Positions 5,224 through 62,279 of a stretch of DNA of 64,000 nt are shown piece after piece. The notes under the pieces are model-generated. The model saw only the letters and a list, made by a program, of their open reading frames with translations, had not been told where the DNA came from and did no database searches. The stretch is taken from NCBI GenBank assembly GCA_937924525.1, contig CALDSU010000014.1, positions 310,001-374,000 on the forward strand. Reading direction: 5' to 3'. Source of the stretch: an uncultured Bryobacteraceae bacterium. GTDB taxonomy: Bacteria; Acidobacteriota; Terriglobia; Bryobacterales; Bryobacteraceae. Position 1 is the first letter of the stretch; each line of letters begins with the position of its first letter. The position numbers and the translations under genes were made by a program.

Positions 5224-8200
5224 CTATTCGTGCACCGGCACCGGCAGACGGGTTTCCGACTCGCCCTGCCGGATGCGCAGCTCCTGTACGCCGGAAGCGC
5301 GCACGGCGCCTCCGACCTTCACGTTGAGTTGATACACGCCCACCTGCCCCGGGGCCAAGCCCGCGTAGGCGACTTCCAGCGGATCCCCGGCGAGGTCCAC
5401 TTCGGGCGCCACCACGGTTTCCGCCAGCGGTCCGTCCGGTCCCGGCAGGCCCGCCTCGACGGCGGGCGATGTCAGCCCAAGGCCCGTCGCATAGATCACC
5501 AGGTGGTCACCCGGGCGAATCGGATTGTCTTCGCCCACCAGTTCGCCGTCCCGGACGACAATGGGCGTCCCGTCGCCGGCGGACCGGAAGACGCTGGGCG
5601 CCGTCGGCTGAATCGTGAAATTGAGGTTGTTGCTGACGCCCGCCGGCGTGCGCAGCACCAGTTGCGCCTTGCCGTCTACATGGAACGGCAACTGAGCATT
5701 GATCTGATTCGCCGAGACGAACACCAGCGGCAGAATGGCGCCGTTGACCGTCAGACAGGACTCACCCAGCGCGGTTGGCAGCGGGATTTCGCGCGTGGCG
5801 ATGTTGATGGGGCTGAGGTCCTGGCCGAGCACGCTGATCAGCCCGCCGGGCGCCACCGGGGCGGTTTGATCGGCGGCGTTCACCACGCGGTCCAGCGAGG
5901 GAATCGGCGTGGCGGCGTCATAGCTCCAGGGGTATACGGTGAAGCCGCTCTGCGTCAGCGCCACGAACGCCTGCCGGTTGGACAGCGCCGCCAGCGTCCG
6001 GATGAAGGCGAATCCCGGCGTCACGGCTTCGGTGACGGGCGCCTCCACGGTGCGGGTGGGCCGCACGGACTGTCCCGTCGCCAGATCCAGCCGGCTGATC
6101 GTGCCCGGGCTCGCCGGCCCGGCCGCCGCGATGCGCACGGCGGTGTCGTCAATGAAGCTGAATCCCAGCGCCGGCTCGATTTGCCGCTGCGGGACCAGGG
6201 AGGCGTTCAGCAGCCGGTTGCCCACCAGGAACGCGCCGTGATTCGAGGCGGCGTAGGTCCCCGCCAGCTCGGAATAGTCCTTGCGGAGCACGGTGAAGGT
6301 GTCCGCGCTGGCTTCGTAAAGCAGAACCCGCCCGTCCGCCATGACCCCCAGAATCGAAGACCCGTTCGGCGGCGCGACCAGGGTGGTGTTGATATGAATG
6401 TCGTTCTTAAACACGCCGAGCCGCGGGAGCGTTGCGCCCCGCCGGGCCGCCAGATCCACCGCATCAATAACATGCGTCTCACCGGACACGCGAATCGCCG
6501 CCAGAATCGCCCGGCCCGACGCCGCGATCGAACGCGGGTAGTGCCCCCGCGGGAAGATCACGGGCGCCGTCGCCCGTAACGGTTCCAGATCGACGACCAG
6601 AGCCCGCGCCGAGTTGTCGTGGCCCACCAGCAAATGCCGCCCGTCCGCCGTGATCGTCATTTGCGTGGGCGTGTTGTACGTTTTGAGCGCCGCGATCTGC
6701 GAGAAATTGCTCCCGTCAAACACCAGAAGCTGGTTCCGGTCCTGCCTCAACACGTAAAAGCGGTTGCGCAGCGGATCCGCCAGAATGTCCACTAGTCTCC
6801 CGGGGACGTTCACGAACGTTCCCCGCTGATCCGGGTCGCGCGCATTGACCAACACCCGGATCGGGTCCGGCAGATTCACGGCCCCGCGCGAGCGGACCTG
6901 AATCGTCCCGGAGGTGGTCCCCTGGCGGTTGGCGTACACGGTGGGATTCACTTGCACCCGAATCACGGCGGGCGTGACGCCGCTCGCCGGGGAAATCGTC
7001 AAGCCCGGCACGTCGGCGCTGAGCGTGAAATCGATCGCGCCGCCGGCCGCGTCCGTCAGCGTGAACTCCTGGGTGATCACTTTGCGGTCGCAGAAGTTGC
7101 CGCGGAACACCAGATCTTCCTTCGAGGCCCGGAGCCGCCGCACCCCGCGGAAATCGCCCACGCGGCCCACTAGCACGCCGCTGTCGGAGATCGCATACAA
7201 CGTCGTCGCCGCGCGGTCGAGCAACGCCTTGCCGGCCAGATTCTCGGGAAGCTGCAACCTGTCCAGCACGGCCAGGTTCGCCGCGTCGAGCACGAACAGC
7301 ACCGGGTTCTCGGGCGTCAGGGTGTCCCCTCCGCCCCCGCCCTGCGCCGACGGCGGAAACTGGCCATAGATCACGCCCCGCTCGGAGTCGATCACGTGGC
7401 TGCCGTACTGGAACAGGCCGCTAACGTTGGCGACCTGGGAGATGAGGGAAAAATCCGCCGCCGAGCGCAGCGTCCAGCCGCTCATGAAATAACTTCCGTC
7501 CCGGGCCACGCTGACCACCCGCGGACCCATCGGCGGCGTGGACCCGCCCGGCGCGGCCGACAACTGCCGGGTCACCACCGAATACACGAAGTCCAGCCGG
7601 CTATCCCCGTCCGGACCCGCGCCGAGCGTGCCCACAATCCACCGGCCGTCCGGCGTCGCCGCCAGCGAAGAGGCGACGATATTCGGCGGGAAATTCCGGC
7701 CATCCTGCTCGACCGGAATCGAGCGCGCCGCGATCTCGGCGATCGTCTCCAGCACCCGCACCGCTCCCGACGCGGGATGAAAAAGCAAAATCTCGACGGT
7801 GGTCGCCAGCAACGCCTGCCCGTCCGCGCCAAAGGCGACGCCCAGCGGCGGAAACCCCAGCGTGTACCGCTGCTGCTGCCCGTTTGCCAGGTTCAGCACC
7901 GTCAGGCCGTTGTAGGGCGTGGCTCCCGTGGTGGCGTCCACGTTGCCGAAGTGGGTCACAACGAGAAACTGACCGTCCGGCGAGAGCGCCAGCGAGCCCG
8001 GCTGGGCCGGCACATTGAAGGACCGGCGGATCGCATGGTCGGACAGGTTGAGAACTTCGATCCGGTTGGCCGTGAAGTTGGCGACGTAGAGGACGCCGCG
8101 CGCTTCATCCAGCGCGAGATCGGAGGCGTTTCCCCCAAGGGGAATCACCTTGCCGAAAGAGGCCGCCCGCAGCAGCGCGTTTCCTCCGGCCCCCGCGGAC

Positions 8201-58031: not shown

Positions 58032-58105
58032 GAAACGAGTCTGCAATGGTAGCCGTCCCTGACGGACAGGGTTTGAACGTTCATTCGAAAGCTCCACTGC
58101 CCGCG

Positions 58106-58819
58106 ATGCCACTCCGCTCTTTGACGCTGTTTCTTATCGTCCTCCCTCTGATAGCGGATGGCCCCGCCCTGGAGCAGCCGCGCACCCTCGTGGATCAATA
58201 TGTAGCGGCCGCGCAAGGGCAAAAGGAGCGCCTCCAAGGCATGGCAATGGAGGTCGAGATCGAAGCAGAACTCCCCAAGTTAAAGAAAAAAGGACATTTG
58301 TTTGCGATCCGCAAGATCGCCTCGCTGGGCAGGATCACCTACGACGCCATCCGGTTCGACGGGGACAAAACCATTCGCAACCAGGTGATCGCCCGCTACA
58401 TGGCGGCGGAAGCCGAAGTCAGCCAGCATGACGGAGAGTCGGTGGCTATCACCCCGGCGAACTACAAGTTTAAGTACAAGGGTTCCAGGGAGTTGCATGG
58501 CCGCTTGGCGCATCTGTTCGAAGTGAAGCCGCACCGGAAGCGGGCCGGGTTGTACCGGGGCGAGCTGTGGGTGGATTCGGAAACCTTCCTGCCGTTGCGG
58601 GAGGCGGGCCGCCTGGTGAAGACTCCCTCGATCTTCCTGAAACGGATCGACTTCGTGCGCGACTACCGCATTGAGGGCGATCTGGCCGTGCCGGACCGGC
58701 TCCAGAGCGAAGTGGATACGCGGGTGGCTGGTAAAGCGATTCTGACCATCGCCTACCACCTCCCCGCGCCCCCCGCCTCGGACCTGCCGGCGGATGCTCT
58801 GGTCAGCCAGTCGCAATAG
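58106..58819 (+). CDS. exported LolA/lipoprotein-sorting-like protein
   Basis: 237 residues from MPLRSLTLFLIVLPLIADG (ATG at 58106), chosen because the signal peptide begins there; an ATG at 58046 would add 20 polar residues in front. The mature part has the beta-rich layout of the LolA/LolB outer-membrane lipoprotein carrier fold (IASLGRITYDAIRFDGDK, KYKGSRELHGRLAHLFEVKP, GLYRGELWVDSETFLPLREA, IEGDLAVPDRLQSEV). Assignment rests on pattern, not on a signature motif. It lies 91 bases before hpnJ on the same strand and could carry a hydrophobic ligand. No Shine-Dalgarno sequence. Confidence 0.55.
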   Translation: MPLRSLTLFLIVLPLIADGPALEQPRTLVDQYVAAAQGQKERLQGMAMEVEIEAELPKLKKKGHLFAIRKIASLGRITYDAIRFDGDKTIRNQVIARYMAAEAEVSQHDGESVAITPANYKFKYKGSRELHGRLAHLFEVKPHRKRAGLYRGELWVDSETFLPLREAGRLVKTPSIFLKRIDFVRDYRIEGDLAVPDRLQSEVDTRVAGKAILTIAYHLPAPPASDLPADALVSQSQ

Positions 58820-58910: not shown

Positions 58911-60365
58911 ATGCGCACCCTGTTCCTGAACCCGCCCTCCTTCGAAGGGTTTGATGGCGGCGCCAGTTCGCGCTGGCCGGCTTCCCGGGAGATCGAATCC
59001 TACTGGTATCCGGTTTGGCTTTGCTATCCGGCGGGCATGCTGCCGGACAGCAAGGTCGTGGACGCTCCACCGCACCGCATTTCGATCGAACAAACGGTGG
59101 AGATGGCCAGGGATTTCGAGTTGCTGGTCCTGTTCACCTCGACCCCGGGCTTTCACGTCGACGTGCAAATGGCGGAGATGATGAAGGACTCGAACCCGAA
59201 GTTGAAGGTGTGCTTTGTCGGGCCTCCCGTGACCACCGAGCCGGAAAAGGCGCTGACGGCCAGTAAGGCCATCGACTTTGTGGTTCGCCGCGAGTTCGAC
59301 TATCAGATTGTCGATTTCGCCAACGGGAAGGCGCTCGCAGAGATTCCGGGGGCGAGTTTCCGCCGGAACGGTGGATTTCAACACAATCCCGAGGGCGGCT
59401 ACATCGAAGATCTGGACGCCCTGCCCTGGGTCACCAAGGTCTACAAACGCGACCTCGACATCACCCGGTACAACGTACCGTTCCTGCGGAACCCCTTCCT
59501 TTCGCTGTACACCTCGCGCGGATGCCCGGCGCAATGCACCTTCTGCCTGTGGCCCCAGACCCACTCCGGCCACCGCTGGAGACTGCGATCGGCCGGCGAT
59601 GTGGCCGCCGAGGTGAAATGGGCGCGGGAGGCGTTCCCGAACGTCCGCGAGATCTTCTTCGACGACGACACGTTCAACTACCAGAAGAAACGCACGATTG
59701 AACTGTGCGAGAAGCTGGGACCGCTGAACTTCACCTGGTCGTGCACCTCGCGCGTCACCACCGACTACGACACATTGAAGGCGATGAAAGAAGCGGGGTG
59801 CCGGCTGATGATCGTCGGCTACGAATCGGGCGACGCCCAGATTCTCAAGAACATCAAGAAAGGCGCCACTCTCGACATGGCGCGGCGGTTCACGGCCAAC
59901 GCCCACAAACTCGGCCTGACCGTACACGGGGATTTTATTGTGGGCCTGCCCGGCGAAACCCGGGAATCGATCCGCCGTACGATCGACTTCGCCAAGGAAT
60001 TGGACACGGAGACGATCCAGGTTTCCATCGCGCATCCGTATCCGGGCACCGAGTTTTACGACTACGCGGACAACAACGGCCTCATCACCATCGACTCAAT
60101 GACGGACGAGAAGGGCCACCAGTTGCCCAACGTGGTGTATCCGGGCCTGGATCGCGCCGAATTGGTGGACTGGGTGGAGCGCTTTTACGGAGAGTACTAT
60201 TTCCGGCCTCGCGTGGTATGGCGGGTGGTGCGCAAGGCGATCTTCGACAGTAAAGAGCGCAAGCGCCTGGCCAAAGAGGCGCGCGAATACCTGGCGCTGC
60301 GGCACAAGCGGAAGAAATTTGTCGCCGAGCAGCGCGCCGCGGCCACCGCGTCGGCCGGCGACTAG
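58911..60365 (+). CDS. hpnJ: HpnJ-like B12-binding radical SAM protein (hopanoid cyclitol formation)
   Basis: 484 residues: an N-terminal B12-binding-like domain (MRTLFLNPPSFEGFDGGASS, CFVGPPVTTEP) and a radical-SAM core with the iron-sulfur motif CPAQCTFCLW (Cys205, Cys209, Cys212). Later segments are IFFDDDTFNYQKKRT, FTWSCTSRVTTDYDTL, MIVGYESGDAQILKNIKKG and HGDFIVGLPGETRESI. It fits HpnJ, required for the cyclitol-ether head group of bacteriohopanepolyols. It heads a run of four tightly packed genes (hpnJ, two SMR-like genes, glycosyltransferase). No squalene-hopene cyclase or hpnH is in the window. Confidence 0.82.
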   Translation: MRTLFLNPPSFEGFDGGASSRWPASREIESYWYPVWLCYPAGMLPDSKVVDAPPHRISIEQTVEMARDFELLVLFTSTPGFHVDVQMAEMMKDSNPKLKVCFVGPPVTTEPEKALTASKAIDFVVRREFDYQIVDFANGKALAEIPGASFRRNGGFQHNPEGGYIEDLDALPWVTKVYKRDLDITRYNVPFLRNPFLSLYTSRGCPAQCTFCLWPQTHSGHRWRLRSAGDVAAEVKWAREAFPNVREIFFDDDTFNYQKKRTIELCEKLGPLNFTWSCTSRVTTDYDTLKAMKEAGCRLMIVGYESGDAQILKNIKKGATLDMARRFTANAHKLGLTVHGDFIVGLPGETRESIRRTIDFAKELDTETIQVSIAHPYPGTEFYDYADNNGLITIDSMTDEKGHQLPNVVYPGLDRAELVDWVERFYGEYYFRPRVVWRVVRKAIFDSKERKRLAKEAREYLALRHKRKKFVAEQRAAATASAGD

Positions 60366-60367
60366 CC

Positions 60368-60790
60368 GTGTCCGCTCCCGCCTCTCCACCAGGTCTGCGC
60401 CCGAAAACCGTGGCGGTGACCGCCGTCGTCGTGCTCAGCAATGTGCTGGGAAATTATTGGCTGGCTTGGGGAATGCACCAGGTTGGCGAACCCCGCGCGC
60501 CGCTGGACTACATCTTGGCCATGCTGCATCCCGGCGTCTTTCTGGGAGTGTCGCTGCTGAGTTTGTGGATGTTGTCCCACATGGCCCTGCTGAGCTTCAC
60601 AGACCTTAGCTATGTCCTGCCGGTCACCTCGATCGGCTACGTGCTGACGGCACTGGCGGGCAAGTTGTTCCTGGGCGAGACGGTTTCGGGTCCCCGATGG
60701 CTGGGGATCGCCTTGATCATGGCGGGCGTCATGCTGGTGGGCCGCACCCCGCCGTCCACCGCCCCGGTTCGCGAAAGAGGCGCGCCATGA
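60368..60790 (+). CDS. small SMR/EamA-like four-helix membrane protein, first of a pair
   Basis: 140 residues from a GTG at 60368, 3 bases after the hpnJ stop. Four hydrophobic helices are visible (VAVTAVVVLSNVLGNYWLAW, VFLGVSLLSLWMLSHMALLS, SYVLPVTSIGYVLTALAGKL, LGIALIMAGVMLVG). The segment YVLPVTSIGYVLTALAGKLF with FLGETVS is characteristic of SMR/EamA half-transporters. Its stop overlaps the start of the next small gene (ATGA). Size, pairing and context resemble ArnE/ArnF, the heterodimer that flips undecaprenyl-linked aminoarabinose; that link is inference. Confidence 0.75.
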   Translation: MSAPASPPGLRPKTVAVTAVVVLSNVLGNYWLAWGMHQVGEPRAPLDYILAMLHPGVFLGVSLLSLWMLSHMALLSFTDLSYVLPVTSIGYVLTALAGKLFLGETVSGPRWLGIALIMAGVMLVGRTPPSTAPVRERGAP

Positions 60791-61149
60791 AATGGCTGCT
60801 CGTGACGATCGTGGTGCTGACCACCACGGCCAGTGAGGTGCTGCGCGCGATGGGCATGCGGCGGCACGGCGAGATTCACGATTTCCGCCCCTCGGCCGTC
60901 GGGCGGGCGCTGGCGGCGCTGGCGCGCAACCGCTACATTATTGGTTCGGTCGCCGCGGCGGCGATTTCCTTCTTCGCGTTTCTCCGGCTGGTCGCCATTG
61001 CCGATTTGAGCTTCGCGGCGCCCGCCACCGCCGCCAGTTTTGCCCTGGAGACCATCCTGGCCAAGTACCTCCTCAGGGAGCGGGTCAACGCCACGCGCTG
61101 GGCCGGCGCACTGATGGTGGCAGCCGGCGTGGGATTGCTGACGTTGTGA
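60787..61149 (+). CDS. small SMR/EamA-like four-helix membrane protein, second of a pair
   Basis: 120 residues from the ATG at 60787 (MKWLLVTIVVLTTTASEVLR). Four helices; the Glu in TASEVLRAMGM stands about where SMR proteins carry their membrane-embedded Glu (Glu14 in EmrE), and SFAAPATAASFALETILAKY with LLRERVNATRWAGALMVAAG is the EamA-like second half. It overlaps both neighbours by 4 bases (ATGA and GTGA). Encoded in tandem with a similar but non-identical protein, so a heterodimer is likely. Confidence 0.75.
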   Translation: MKWLLVTIVVLTTTASEVLRAMGMRRHGEIHDFRPSAVGRALAALARNRYIIGSVAAAAISFFAFLRLVAIADLSFAAPATAASFALETILAKYLLRERVNATRWAGALMVAAGVGLLTL

Positions 61150-62279
61150 GCGTTCTACTGGCGCTGCCGGCGCTGGGCGCCACGGGGTACTTCCTGCTGG
61201 CTTTGGCGGCCGGCGTCCGCCGCTGGGGACGCCGGCAGAGCGAAGCCCGGGCCGATTTTCAGCCCCCCATTTCGATTCTGAAGCCCGTGCGGGGCCGCGA
61301 TCCGCGGTTCCTCGAGGCGATTCGCTCCTACGCCTGCCAGGACTACCCTGCTTGGGAACTCCTGTTCGGCGTCTCGGACCCGGCCGACCCGGCCCTGGCG
61401 GACATCCGGCAGTTGCAACGTGAGTTCCCGCAAAGGACGATCGAGATCGTCGCCTCTCGTACGGCCGCGCCGAACGGCAAGGTCGGCGTGTTGATCGACC
61501 TGGCGCGCGCGGCGCGCCACCCGCTGCTGCTGATCAGCGACAGCGACATGGCCGCGCCCCCCGGGTATCTGCGCCAAGTCGCCGGTCCGCTGGCGGATCC
61601 CGCGGTGGGACTGGTGACCTGCCTCTACCGTGCTTCGGCGGAGACGACCCCGGCGCGCTGGGAGGCGTTGGGCGTCTCGACGGAGTTCGCGCCCAGCGTC
61701 CTGGTGGCGGAGTTGTCCGGACTGTCCGGTTTCGCCTTGGGTTCCACGATGGTCGTGCGCGCGGCCGACCTCGAGCGTCTGGGCGGATTTGAGCGCTTAC
61801 GCGAGTACCTGGCCGATGACTTCCACCTGGGCCGCATGGTGAACGAACTGGGGCTGCGCGTGCATCTGTCGCACACCGTGGTGGAAACCCATCTGGCAGG
61901 ATCCACGTGGGGGGAGGTCTGGCGCCACGCGGTGCGCTGGTCCCGGACGATCCGCATGACGCGCAGGGCGGGATATTACGGCTACGCGATCACCCAGGGA
62001 ACATGCTGGGCGGTGCTGGCGGGACTGGCGGGCTTCCCGGCCCTGGGCGCAGCGTGCCTGGCCGCTCGCCTGGCGTCCGGCCTCTTCATTGGCGGGCTGG
62101 TGCTCAAGGATCGCGCCGTCTGGCGTCAGGCTTGGGCCATTCCCCTCCGCGACCTGTGGGGCGCCGCCGTCTGGCTGGCCGGCTTGTTCGGAGACACGGT
62201 TCATTGGCGGGGGCTCTCCCTCCGTCTCTCCGCCGACGGTCGCATCCTCCCGGCCCGGGAACACTCTTCCAGAATCTGA
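61146..62279 (+). CDS. hpnI: HpnI-like glycosyltransferase (GT2/GT21 type)
   Basis: 377 residues from a GTG at 61146. An N-terminal helix is followed by PISILKPVRGRDPRFLEAIR (nucleotide-sugar site), SDSDMAAPPGYLRQV (DxD at Asp132-Asp134), EYLADDFHLGRMV (acidic base region) and HAVRWSRTIRMTR (a variant of the QxxRW motif with His in the first place), then C-terminal helices. It matches ceramide-glucosyltransferase-like HpnI, which adds N-acetylglucosamine to bacteriohopanetetrol. The deacetylase HpnK, the usual next enzyme, is not visible here, so the pathway may differ or hpnK may be elsewhere. Last gene of the coupled run. Confidence 0.8.
   Translation: MSVLLALPALGATGYFLLALAAGVRRWGRRQSEARADFQPPISILKPVRGRDPRFLEAIRSYACQDYPAWELLFGVSDPADPALADIRQLQREFPQRTIEIVASRTAAPNGKVGVLIDLARAARHPLLLISDSDMAAPPGYLRQVAGPLADPAVGLVTCLYRASAETTPARWEALGVSTEFAPSVLVAELSGLSGFALGSTMVVRAADLERLGGFERLREYLADDFHLGRMVNELGLRVHLSHTVVETHLAGSTWGEVWRHAVRWSRTIRMTRRAGYYGYAITQGTCWAVLAGLAGFPALGAACLAARLASGLFIGGLVLKDRAVWRQAWAIPLRDLWGAAVWLAGLFGDTVHWRGLSLRLSADGRILPAREHSSRI

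Follow-up and report, generated by a model that had tools for sequence, protein, structure and literature searches.

Paired SMR-like proteins in hopanoid head-group operons of Acidobacteriota: a candidate hopanoid flippase

Hopanoids are bacterial sterol-like lipids, and the composite hopanoids stiffen bacterial membranes and serve as biomarkers in rocks. We know of no proven protein that flips head-group-modified hopanoids across the inner membrane. How these lipids first leave the cytoplasmic leaflet, a step for which no description was found in the accessible parts of the literature examined, is the question raised by a four-gene operon in a 64,000-nucleotide stretch of DNA from an uncultured Bryobacteraceae bacterium (“the window”; assembly GCA_937924525.1, contig CALDSU010000014.1, positions 310,001 to 374,000). 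A preliminary description of the window had noted hpnJ, two different small proteins resembling the small multidrug resistance (SMR) and EamA families, here called S1 and S2, and hpnI, and had read the two small proteins as a dedicated flippase. Our analysis supports that interpretation, which is strengthened by in-frame fusions of S2 to HpnI, by the replacement of the pair with HpnL or a relative in another branch of the HpnJ tree, and by the opposite charge bias of the two subunits; that the pair flips lipids, and that its substrate is a hopanoid, is what we infer from such evidence.

The four nearly seamless genes stand where they had been placed (Table 1). Both 4-base overlaps, between S1 and S2 (ATGA) and between S2 and hpnI (GTGA), had been given correctly, and the gap between hpnJ and S1, given as 3 bases, is 2. 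The enzymes were rightly named: HpnJ, with a B12-binding and a radical SAM domain, scores 788 bits against the TIGR03471 cut-off of 577.6, and HpnI scores 352.2 bits against 310 for TIGR03472. HpnI places N-acetylglucosamine onto bacteriohopanetetrol (BHT), HpnK acts in deacetylation, HpnJ forms the cyclitol ether, and HpnN carries hopanoids to the outer membrane (PMC12583986; here and below, statements that cite a PMC accession refer to the accessible parts of that paper). The source genome (G000; genomes are denoted by G, contigs by C, loci by L and families by f) is acidobacterial, comprises 21 contigs and has its closest named relatives mainly in the Bryobacterales. It encodes a squalene-hopene cyclase (shc; C8:464716-466584, 664 bits against a cut-off of 431), beside which lie hpnA, hpnC and an HpnD-like gene, the last cut by the edge of the stretch examined. 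A second HpnI copy, scoring 358.9 bits and thus above the cut-off, lies at L134:5103-6233 on contig C1.

Given at least 577 confirmed stretches with close relatives of the window’s HpnJ, we analyzed the best 80 loci. The order hpnJ-S1-S2-hpnI is kept in 74 of these 80, with a median spacing of -4 bases at both the S1-S2 and the S2-hpnI junction, and with 39-63% identity to the window protein for S1 and 43-67% for S2. Four of the six loci without the full order reach a contig edge (L019, L040, L041 and L054), the start of S1 being visible in L040 and L041. The flanks served as a control: the upstream uvrA was found within 5 kb in 0/51 loci having enough flank, and the downstream transglycosylase was kept in 0/55. 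Since the order persists while the flanking genes do not, it is beyond chance.

The distribution of the pair was surveyed in 247 Acidobacteriota genomes, with thresholds of E<=1e-130 for HpnJ and E<=1e-60 for HpnI; HpnJ is encoded in 37, HpnI in 56, HpnK over its cut-off in 18 and squalene-hopene cyclase in 65. The S2 profile also detects S1, and matches of at least 48 bits were counted as strong. There are 89 such matches, 69 of them within 5 kb of hpnJ, hpnI or hpnK; the small genes do not, then, occur mostly away from hopanoid genes, an outcome that would have told against a dedicated function. Two further strong matches, in G093, adjoin an hpnJ split between two overlapping reading frames (L105:7653-9279, contig C34), reflecting either a broken gene or a sequencing error. 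Weaker S2-profile matches lie near hpnJ, hpnI or hpnK in 0/51 cases (16 of these were compared with 13 typed rows and 23 added ones). Among the 65 genomes with shc, a strong SMR match is present in 41/49 that also encode HpnI or HpnJ and in 1/16 that encode neither; the pair therefore tracks the head-group genes, not hopanoid synthesis itself.

For the genomes with hpnJ, the set was extended to 56 (37 from the survey, two added from the class of G028 and 17 from the class of G047); counts of genomes here include kin and do not represent independent events. In 39 the pair lies no more than 5 kb from hpnJ, and in 8 it is beside hpnK and/or hpnI with hpnJ on a different contig, so that 47/56 carry it near at least one of the three genes, in several gene orders. 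In one of the latter group, G374, hpnJ is at a contig edge and a break in the assembly may account for the separation. In two cases the pair was found at another place in the genome (G119, at 8 kb, and G183, on another contig), and a relative of HpnL takes its place in two others (G028 and G248). No pair was seen in the remaining five, three of which are affected by contig ends (G180, G260 and G400; the others are G189 and G379). In G189 (L110, contig C147), a 281-residue frame resembling a membrane protein sits between hpnJ and hpnI, where the pair would be expected.

Six arrangements can be distinguished. The order seen in the window is shared by its relatives and by G086, and family f2 of the same class has hpnJ-S1-S2 with hpnI elsewhere. 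Other genomes have hpnJ-hpnK-S1-S2-hpnI (e.g., G058, G087, G113, G153, G368, G371, G380, G383, G385 and G391) or hpnK-S1-S2-hpnI away from hpnJ (e.g., G374, G382, G387 and G390); four have hpnI-hpnK followed by a single SMR gene and no hpnJ (G035, G061, G176 and G222). In the sixth, hpnK and S1 are followed by an in-frame fusion of S2 to HpnI. This fusion occurs in 9/146 HpnI reading frames across the examined loci, all of them from three genomes of family f70 (G372, G392 and G397, representing three genera) through overlapping loci; in G382, a congener of G392, S2 and hpnI are unfused. The gene order and the fusion together make a functional link of the pair to the hopanoid head-group genes close to certain. 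The fusion is also consistent with the topology we infer: the C-terminus of S2 would lie outside, the first helix of HpnI would run inward, and the glycosyltransferase domain would be cytoplasmic.

What kind of proteins are S1 and S2? Pfam EamA (PF00892) is barely passed, at 30.2 bits for S1 and 28.7 for S2 against a cut-off of 28.2; PF00893 gives 17.3 bits for S1 against 23.7 and leaves S2 unmatched, and neither protein passes any NCBIfam cut-off. A sequence profile search of the PDB matched S1 to SLC35-type proteins only (E about 0.006-0.009) and left S2 unmatched at 0.01. AlphaFold2 predicted four long membrane helices for each (pLDDT 86.0 for S1 and 86.6 for S2, the five S2 models spanning 67-87), and the top Foldseek matches of both models are Gdx-Clo and EmrE, with probability 1.00. 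With about 110-140 residues, four transmembrane (TM) helices and, in the models, an SMR fold, they have the size and predicted architecture of the SMR/EamA group within the drug/metabolite transporters (DMT).

Opposite charge bias typifies antiparallel SMR pairs (PMC9574504), and we counted Lys/Arg bias as in that review, with helix midpoints set from the models. The mean bias is +3.3 for S1 and -6.9 for S2, and the two are opposite in 70/75 pairs, S1 having a bias of 0 or -1 in the other five; adjacent genes with opposite bias are thus the rule, as in paired antiparallel SMRs, and the orientations predicted in Table 1 follow from this bias. At the central TM1 site S1 has Asn in 68/73 sequences. 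S2 is acidic there in 75/75 (Asp 52, Glu 23), the residue in the window being Glu17, so that the membrane-embedded Glu noticed in the preliminary description is part of a fully conserved acidic position; S2 Glu88 is also kept in 75/75. The combination that marks proton-coupled SMRs (Qac and Gdx), a TM1 Glu in the subunits with a GXG motif in TM3, is not found, GXG being absent at the TM3 positions tabulated. In seven pairs (14 proteins) from other families, S2 has Asp in 7/7 and a bias of -6 to -10, and S1 has Asn (four), Ala (two) or Ser (one), with a weak bias of -1 to +3. Six single SMR proteins were examined in the same way: those of the four hpnI-hpnK-SMR genomes, that of G223, which adjoins hpnI only, and that of G184, located elsewhere. 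Their central site is Gln in 6/6, and in five the bias is -2 to +2, like that of dual-topology homodimers; the G061 protein (L120) has a bias of +6 and a long N-terminus that is doubtful. In lipid SMRs the central site is often Asn, and proton coupling may be lacking (PMC9574504). The acid of S2 might serve to bind the amino group of a glucosamine or cyclitol head group, or might couple to protons.

A second line of evidence comes from operons in which the pair is replaced. Other phyla were sampled through plasmid records only, where HpnJ matched 20 records, seven of which were examined. Six loci from Burkholderiaceae and Methylobacterium (L087, L088, L089, L091, L139 and L140) carry HpnL adjoining the head-group genes, all seven HpnL proteins passing the TIGR03476 cut-off, and an SMR match was found in none of the six. 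One of these, on a Caballeronia plasmid (L139), has two different HpnL genes over the cut-off, at 1297-2355 and 5729-6751, one after hpnK and one after hpnI. A cluster from Acidithiobacillaceae is reported with hpnI, J, K, N and L consecutive (PMC8886135). In the acidobacteria, G028 has hpnI-hpnJ-hpnK and G248 hpnJ-hpnK-hpnI, each with an HpnL relative of the PF03706 type (LPG_synthase_TM; the G028 protein was the one tested); in G180 and G260 the contigs end after hpnK, and another G180 contig starts with an HpnL-like fragment. At E<=1e-8 the S2 profile matches nothing in these four genomes, and G000 in turn has no match to HpnL (TIGR03476) at E<=0.001. HpnL-like proteins as such are widespread, at 62 places in 49/247 genomes, with only one near hpnJ, hpnI or hpnK. 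In a tree built from a chosen subset of 42 HpnJ proteins, 29 SMR-type and 10 HpnL-type rows (L109 and L142 being labeled HpnL-type from contig ends) are split on one branch (99/95); the other branch consists of proteobacteria and a few acidobacteria, and its readable operons carry HpnL or a relative and no SMR. On the sequence evidence there are two operon lineages, SMR-type and HpnL-type.

Taken with the fold, the analogy to ArnE/ArnF and GpgSDF and the HpnL counterpart, we consider it likely that S1 and S2 form an antiparallel heterodimer which flips head-group-modified hopanoids in HpnL’s place. HpnI, HpnK where present, and HpnJ would build BHT N-acetylglucosamine, glucosamine or cyclitol ether on the cytoplasmic side, and the SMR-fold heterodimer would move the capped hopanoids across the inner membrane, from its inner to its outer leaflet. 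A polar pocket would hold the head group, with the Asp/Glu of S2 touching the group or its amine, and a portal between the TM2 helices would let the hopane skeleton stay in the membrane; HpnI would be kept beside the flippase by being coupled to S2. The same role would fall to the PF03706 protein HpnL or a relative, MprF-flippase-like and unrelated to SMRs, in proteobacteria and in some acidobacteria. A bolder version, on which we are evenly divided, is that S1-S2 represents an additional subtype of SMR, in which two obligate partners form a heterodimer whose Asn/Asp(Glu) center is asymmetric and which flips aminosugar- or aminocyclitol-capped hopanoids; it would be physically coupled to HpnI, with the unrelated HpnL as its counterpart elsewhere. 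In that case most operons of the hpnI/J/K type would encode a flippase of their own, belonging to either of two unrelated types.

Known systems resemble the pair in mode more than in family. ArnE/ArnF, the lipid SMR to which the preliminary description had likened the pair and which flips undecaprenyl-phosphate-aminoarabinose, shares small SMR-fold subunits encoded within a lipid head-group operon, and for most S2 the named model that matches is ArnE (67/75 at E<=0.01); the Asn that replaces Glu at the S1 central site is frequent in lipid SMRs (PMC9574504). However, the ArnE/ArnF cut-offs are far from reached (S1 28.5 against 92 bits and 21.4 against 99; S2 13.8 against 92), S1/S2 belong to an hpn operon and S2 is acidic throughout, so membership of ArnE/ArnF was rejected. 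GpgSDF of Pseudomonas and HexSDF of Clostridioides share the operon logic of glycosyltransferase, deacetylase and predicted flippase (compare hpnI-hpnK-flippase), although they act on other lipids through other enzyme families and have an MprF-like protein instead of an SMR pair; the third gene in each encodes a protein predicted to be an MprF/UPF0104-like flippase, and flipping was not demonstrated there (PMC12713373, PMC10128005). The function of HpnL is not established (PMC12583986). EmrE, Gdx and EbrAB, the drug and guanidinium SMRs, share the four-helix fold and include paired members of opposite charge bias, but their central Glu, which is Asn in S1, is a key residue.

Several observations weigh against the flippase reading. 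The Foldseek E-values of the top SMR matches are only 0.02-0.08, the TM-score of S1 normalized by query is 0.44-0.51, and the Asp/Glu of S2 is unlike the Asn reported for lipid SMRs. Two of the 80 loci are genuine misses: L031 retains hpnJ and hpnI with the pair absent, and L075 has neither the pair nor hpnI. In the 18 genomes with HpnK over the cut-off, the 5 kb around hpnK hold the pair in five, a single SMR in four, an HpnL relative in one and neither SMR nor HpnL in eight. The HpnL relatives of G028 and G248 fall below the HpnL cut-off (111.7 and 148.7 against 195.65 bits), and the mutual exclusion of SMR and HpnL is one split of the HpnJ tree, not many independent events. Second copies of the pair lie remote from hopanoid genes in G221 and G245, and tandem pairs occur in three genomes that lack shc (G068, G157 and G196). 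Across the remote pairs (L102, L103, L104, L106 and L107), no shared partner was found among ten neighbor proteins tested.

The shc-less genomes would be explained if the pair flipped another glycolipid, for example a polyprenyl- or diacylglycerol-linked aminosugar, and HpnI and HpnJ acted on that lipid too, hopanoids not being the substrate; HpnI does fall within a broad family of lipid glycosyltransferases (Glyco_transf_21), and subunits of the undecaprenyl-aminoarabinose flippase are among the closest named models. We regard this as unlikely, given that HpnJ and HpnI exceed hopanoid equivalog cut-offs, that SMR matches track hpnI and hpnJ within the 65 shc genomes, and that the window’s own genome has shc, hpnA, hpnC and the HpnD-like gene. 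The in-frame fusions and the tight operon would also suit membrane anchors or regulatory subunits that join HpnI and HpnJ and transport nothing. An SMR-like fold, a charge pattern of the antiparallel kind and an Asp/Glu conserved within the membrane speak for transport, as do the single-gene form beside hpnI-hpnK, with its charge bias mostly near zero, and the unrelated putative flippase HpnL in other operons, and we see little chance that S1 and S2 are structural subunits of this kind.

Could the genes encode an ordinary paired SMR exporter of drugs or cations that entered the operon by accident? They share the fold, and the drug subtype also has paired members (PMC9574504), but the drug-exporter models score far below their cut-offs (S1 reaches 17.7 against 160 bits for EbrB and 16.2 against 226 for EmrE), the window’s S2 has no NCBIfam match at E<=0.01, S1 lacks the central Glu, and the linkage to hpn genes recurs in families of two acidobacterial classes; the profile placement that would have undone the flippase proposal was not obtained, and we rejected the exporter as highly improbable. 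Chance or mere regional synteny deserves next to no credence: related genomes do share gene order through descent, yet the flanks are not kept, counts that refute it as far as they go, and the linkage persists through rearrangements and fusion.

If the pair does flip modified hopanoids, two candidate flippases are offered, one per operon lineage; a function is predicted for HpnL, and so is a lipid-flipping SMR pair that retains one acidic residue. Among the titles and abstract openings of the matches listed, from which subscription literature was mostly outside the scope, no SMR protein was tied to hopanoids. Acidobacteria of subdivisions SD1 and SD3 are reported to have hpnI and hpnJ and to lack hpnK, and “transporter” has no match in the accessible text of that report (PMC5462960); the presence of a dedicated flippase would point to hpnI and hpnJ being in use in such organisms.

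The absence of HpnK, remarked on in the preliminary description, holds for the window’s operon and extends to the operons of the window’s family, of family f2 and of G086; it does not hold more widely, as other families have hpnK beside the pair. A role for the pair as a replacement of HpnK was rejected, because hpnK and the pair adjoin in several families. The best HpnK match in G000 (L135:5795-6634, contig C3) scores 188.8 bits, or 194.4 over the full protein, against the TIGR03473 cut-off of 232.6, and this HpnK/ChbG-family deacetylase directly follows an MlaD (MCE) gene. Matches of comparable strength (E<=1e-50 and below the cut-off) are present in 26/29 genomes of families f1 and f2. The G000 protein is probably another paralog, not a hidden HpnK, because five genomes (G047, G058, G087, G113 and G153) have such a match and a separate HpnK over the cut-off.

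Table 1. Positions in the window of the operon genes and of one neighboring gene
Feature	Position	Strand	Description
hpnJ	58911..60365	+	radical SAM enzyme, cyclitol ether head group; TIGR03471 equivalog
S1	60368..60790	+	four-helix SMR-like subunit, GTG start; TM1 central Asn; predicted N-in/C-in
S2	60787..61149	+	four-helix SMR-like subunit; TM1 central Asp/Glu; predicted N-out/C-out; fused to HpnI in 3 other genomes
hpnI	61146..62279	+	glycosyltransferase, N-acetylglucosamine onto bacteriohopanetetrol; TIGR03472 equivalog, Glyco_transf_21
LolA/RseB-like protein	58046..58819	+	possible extra operon member; weak LolA_like and MucB_RseB matches

The gene upstream of hpnJ may belong to the operon. 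A LolA/RseB-like gene lies within 200 bases upstream of hpnJ in 40/80 loci (73 of which have more than 1 kb upstream), and the window’s protein, whose Pfam matches are weak, matches PDB entry 3bk5 with E 0.0028; it is possibly a periplasmic carrier of the flipped lipid.

Two further observations come from plasmids. A radical SAM protein 34% identical to HpnJ is encoded on a Lawsonia plasmid (L090:8001-9464) with no hpnI or hpnK, in a glycan-type cluster that includes two DUF2304 genes; no hopanoid genes are annotated in that stretch. S2 had no match in the plasmid records, and S1 matched ten of them weakly; an S1-like “hypothetical protein” is encoded at L138:4932-5348, on plasmid pACPOL4 of Acidisarcina polymorpha.

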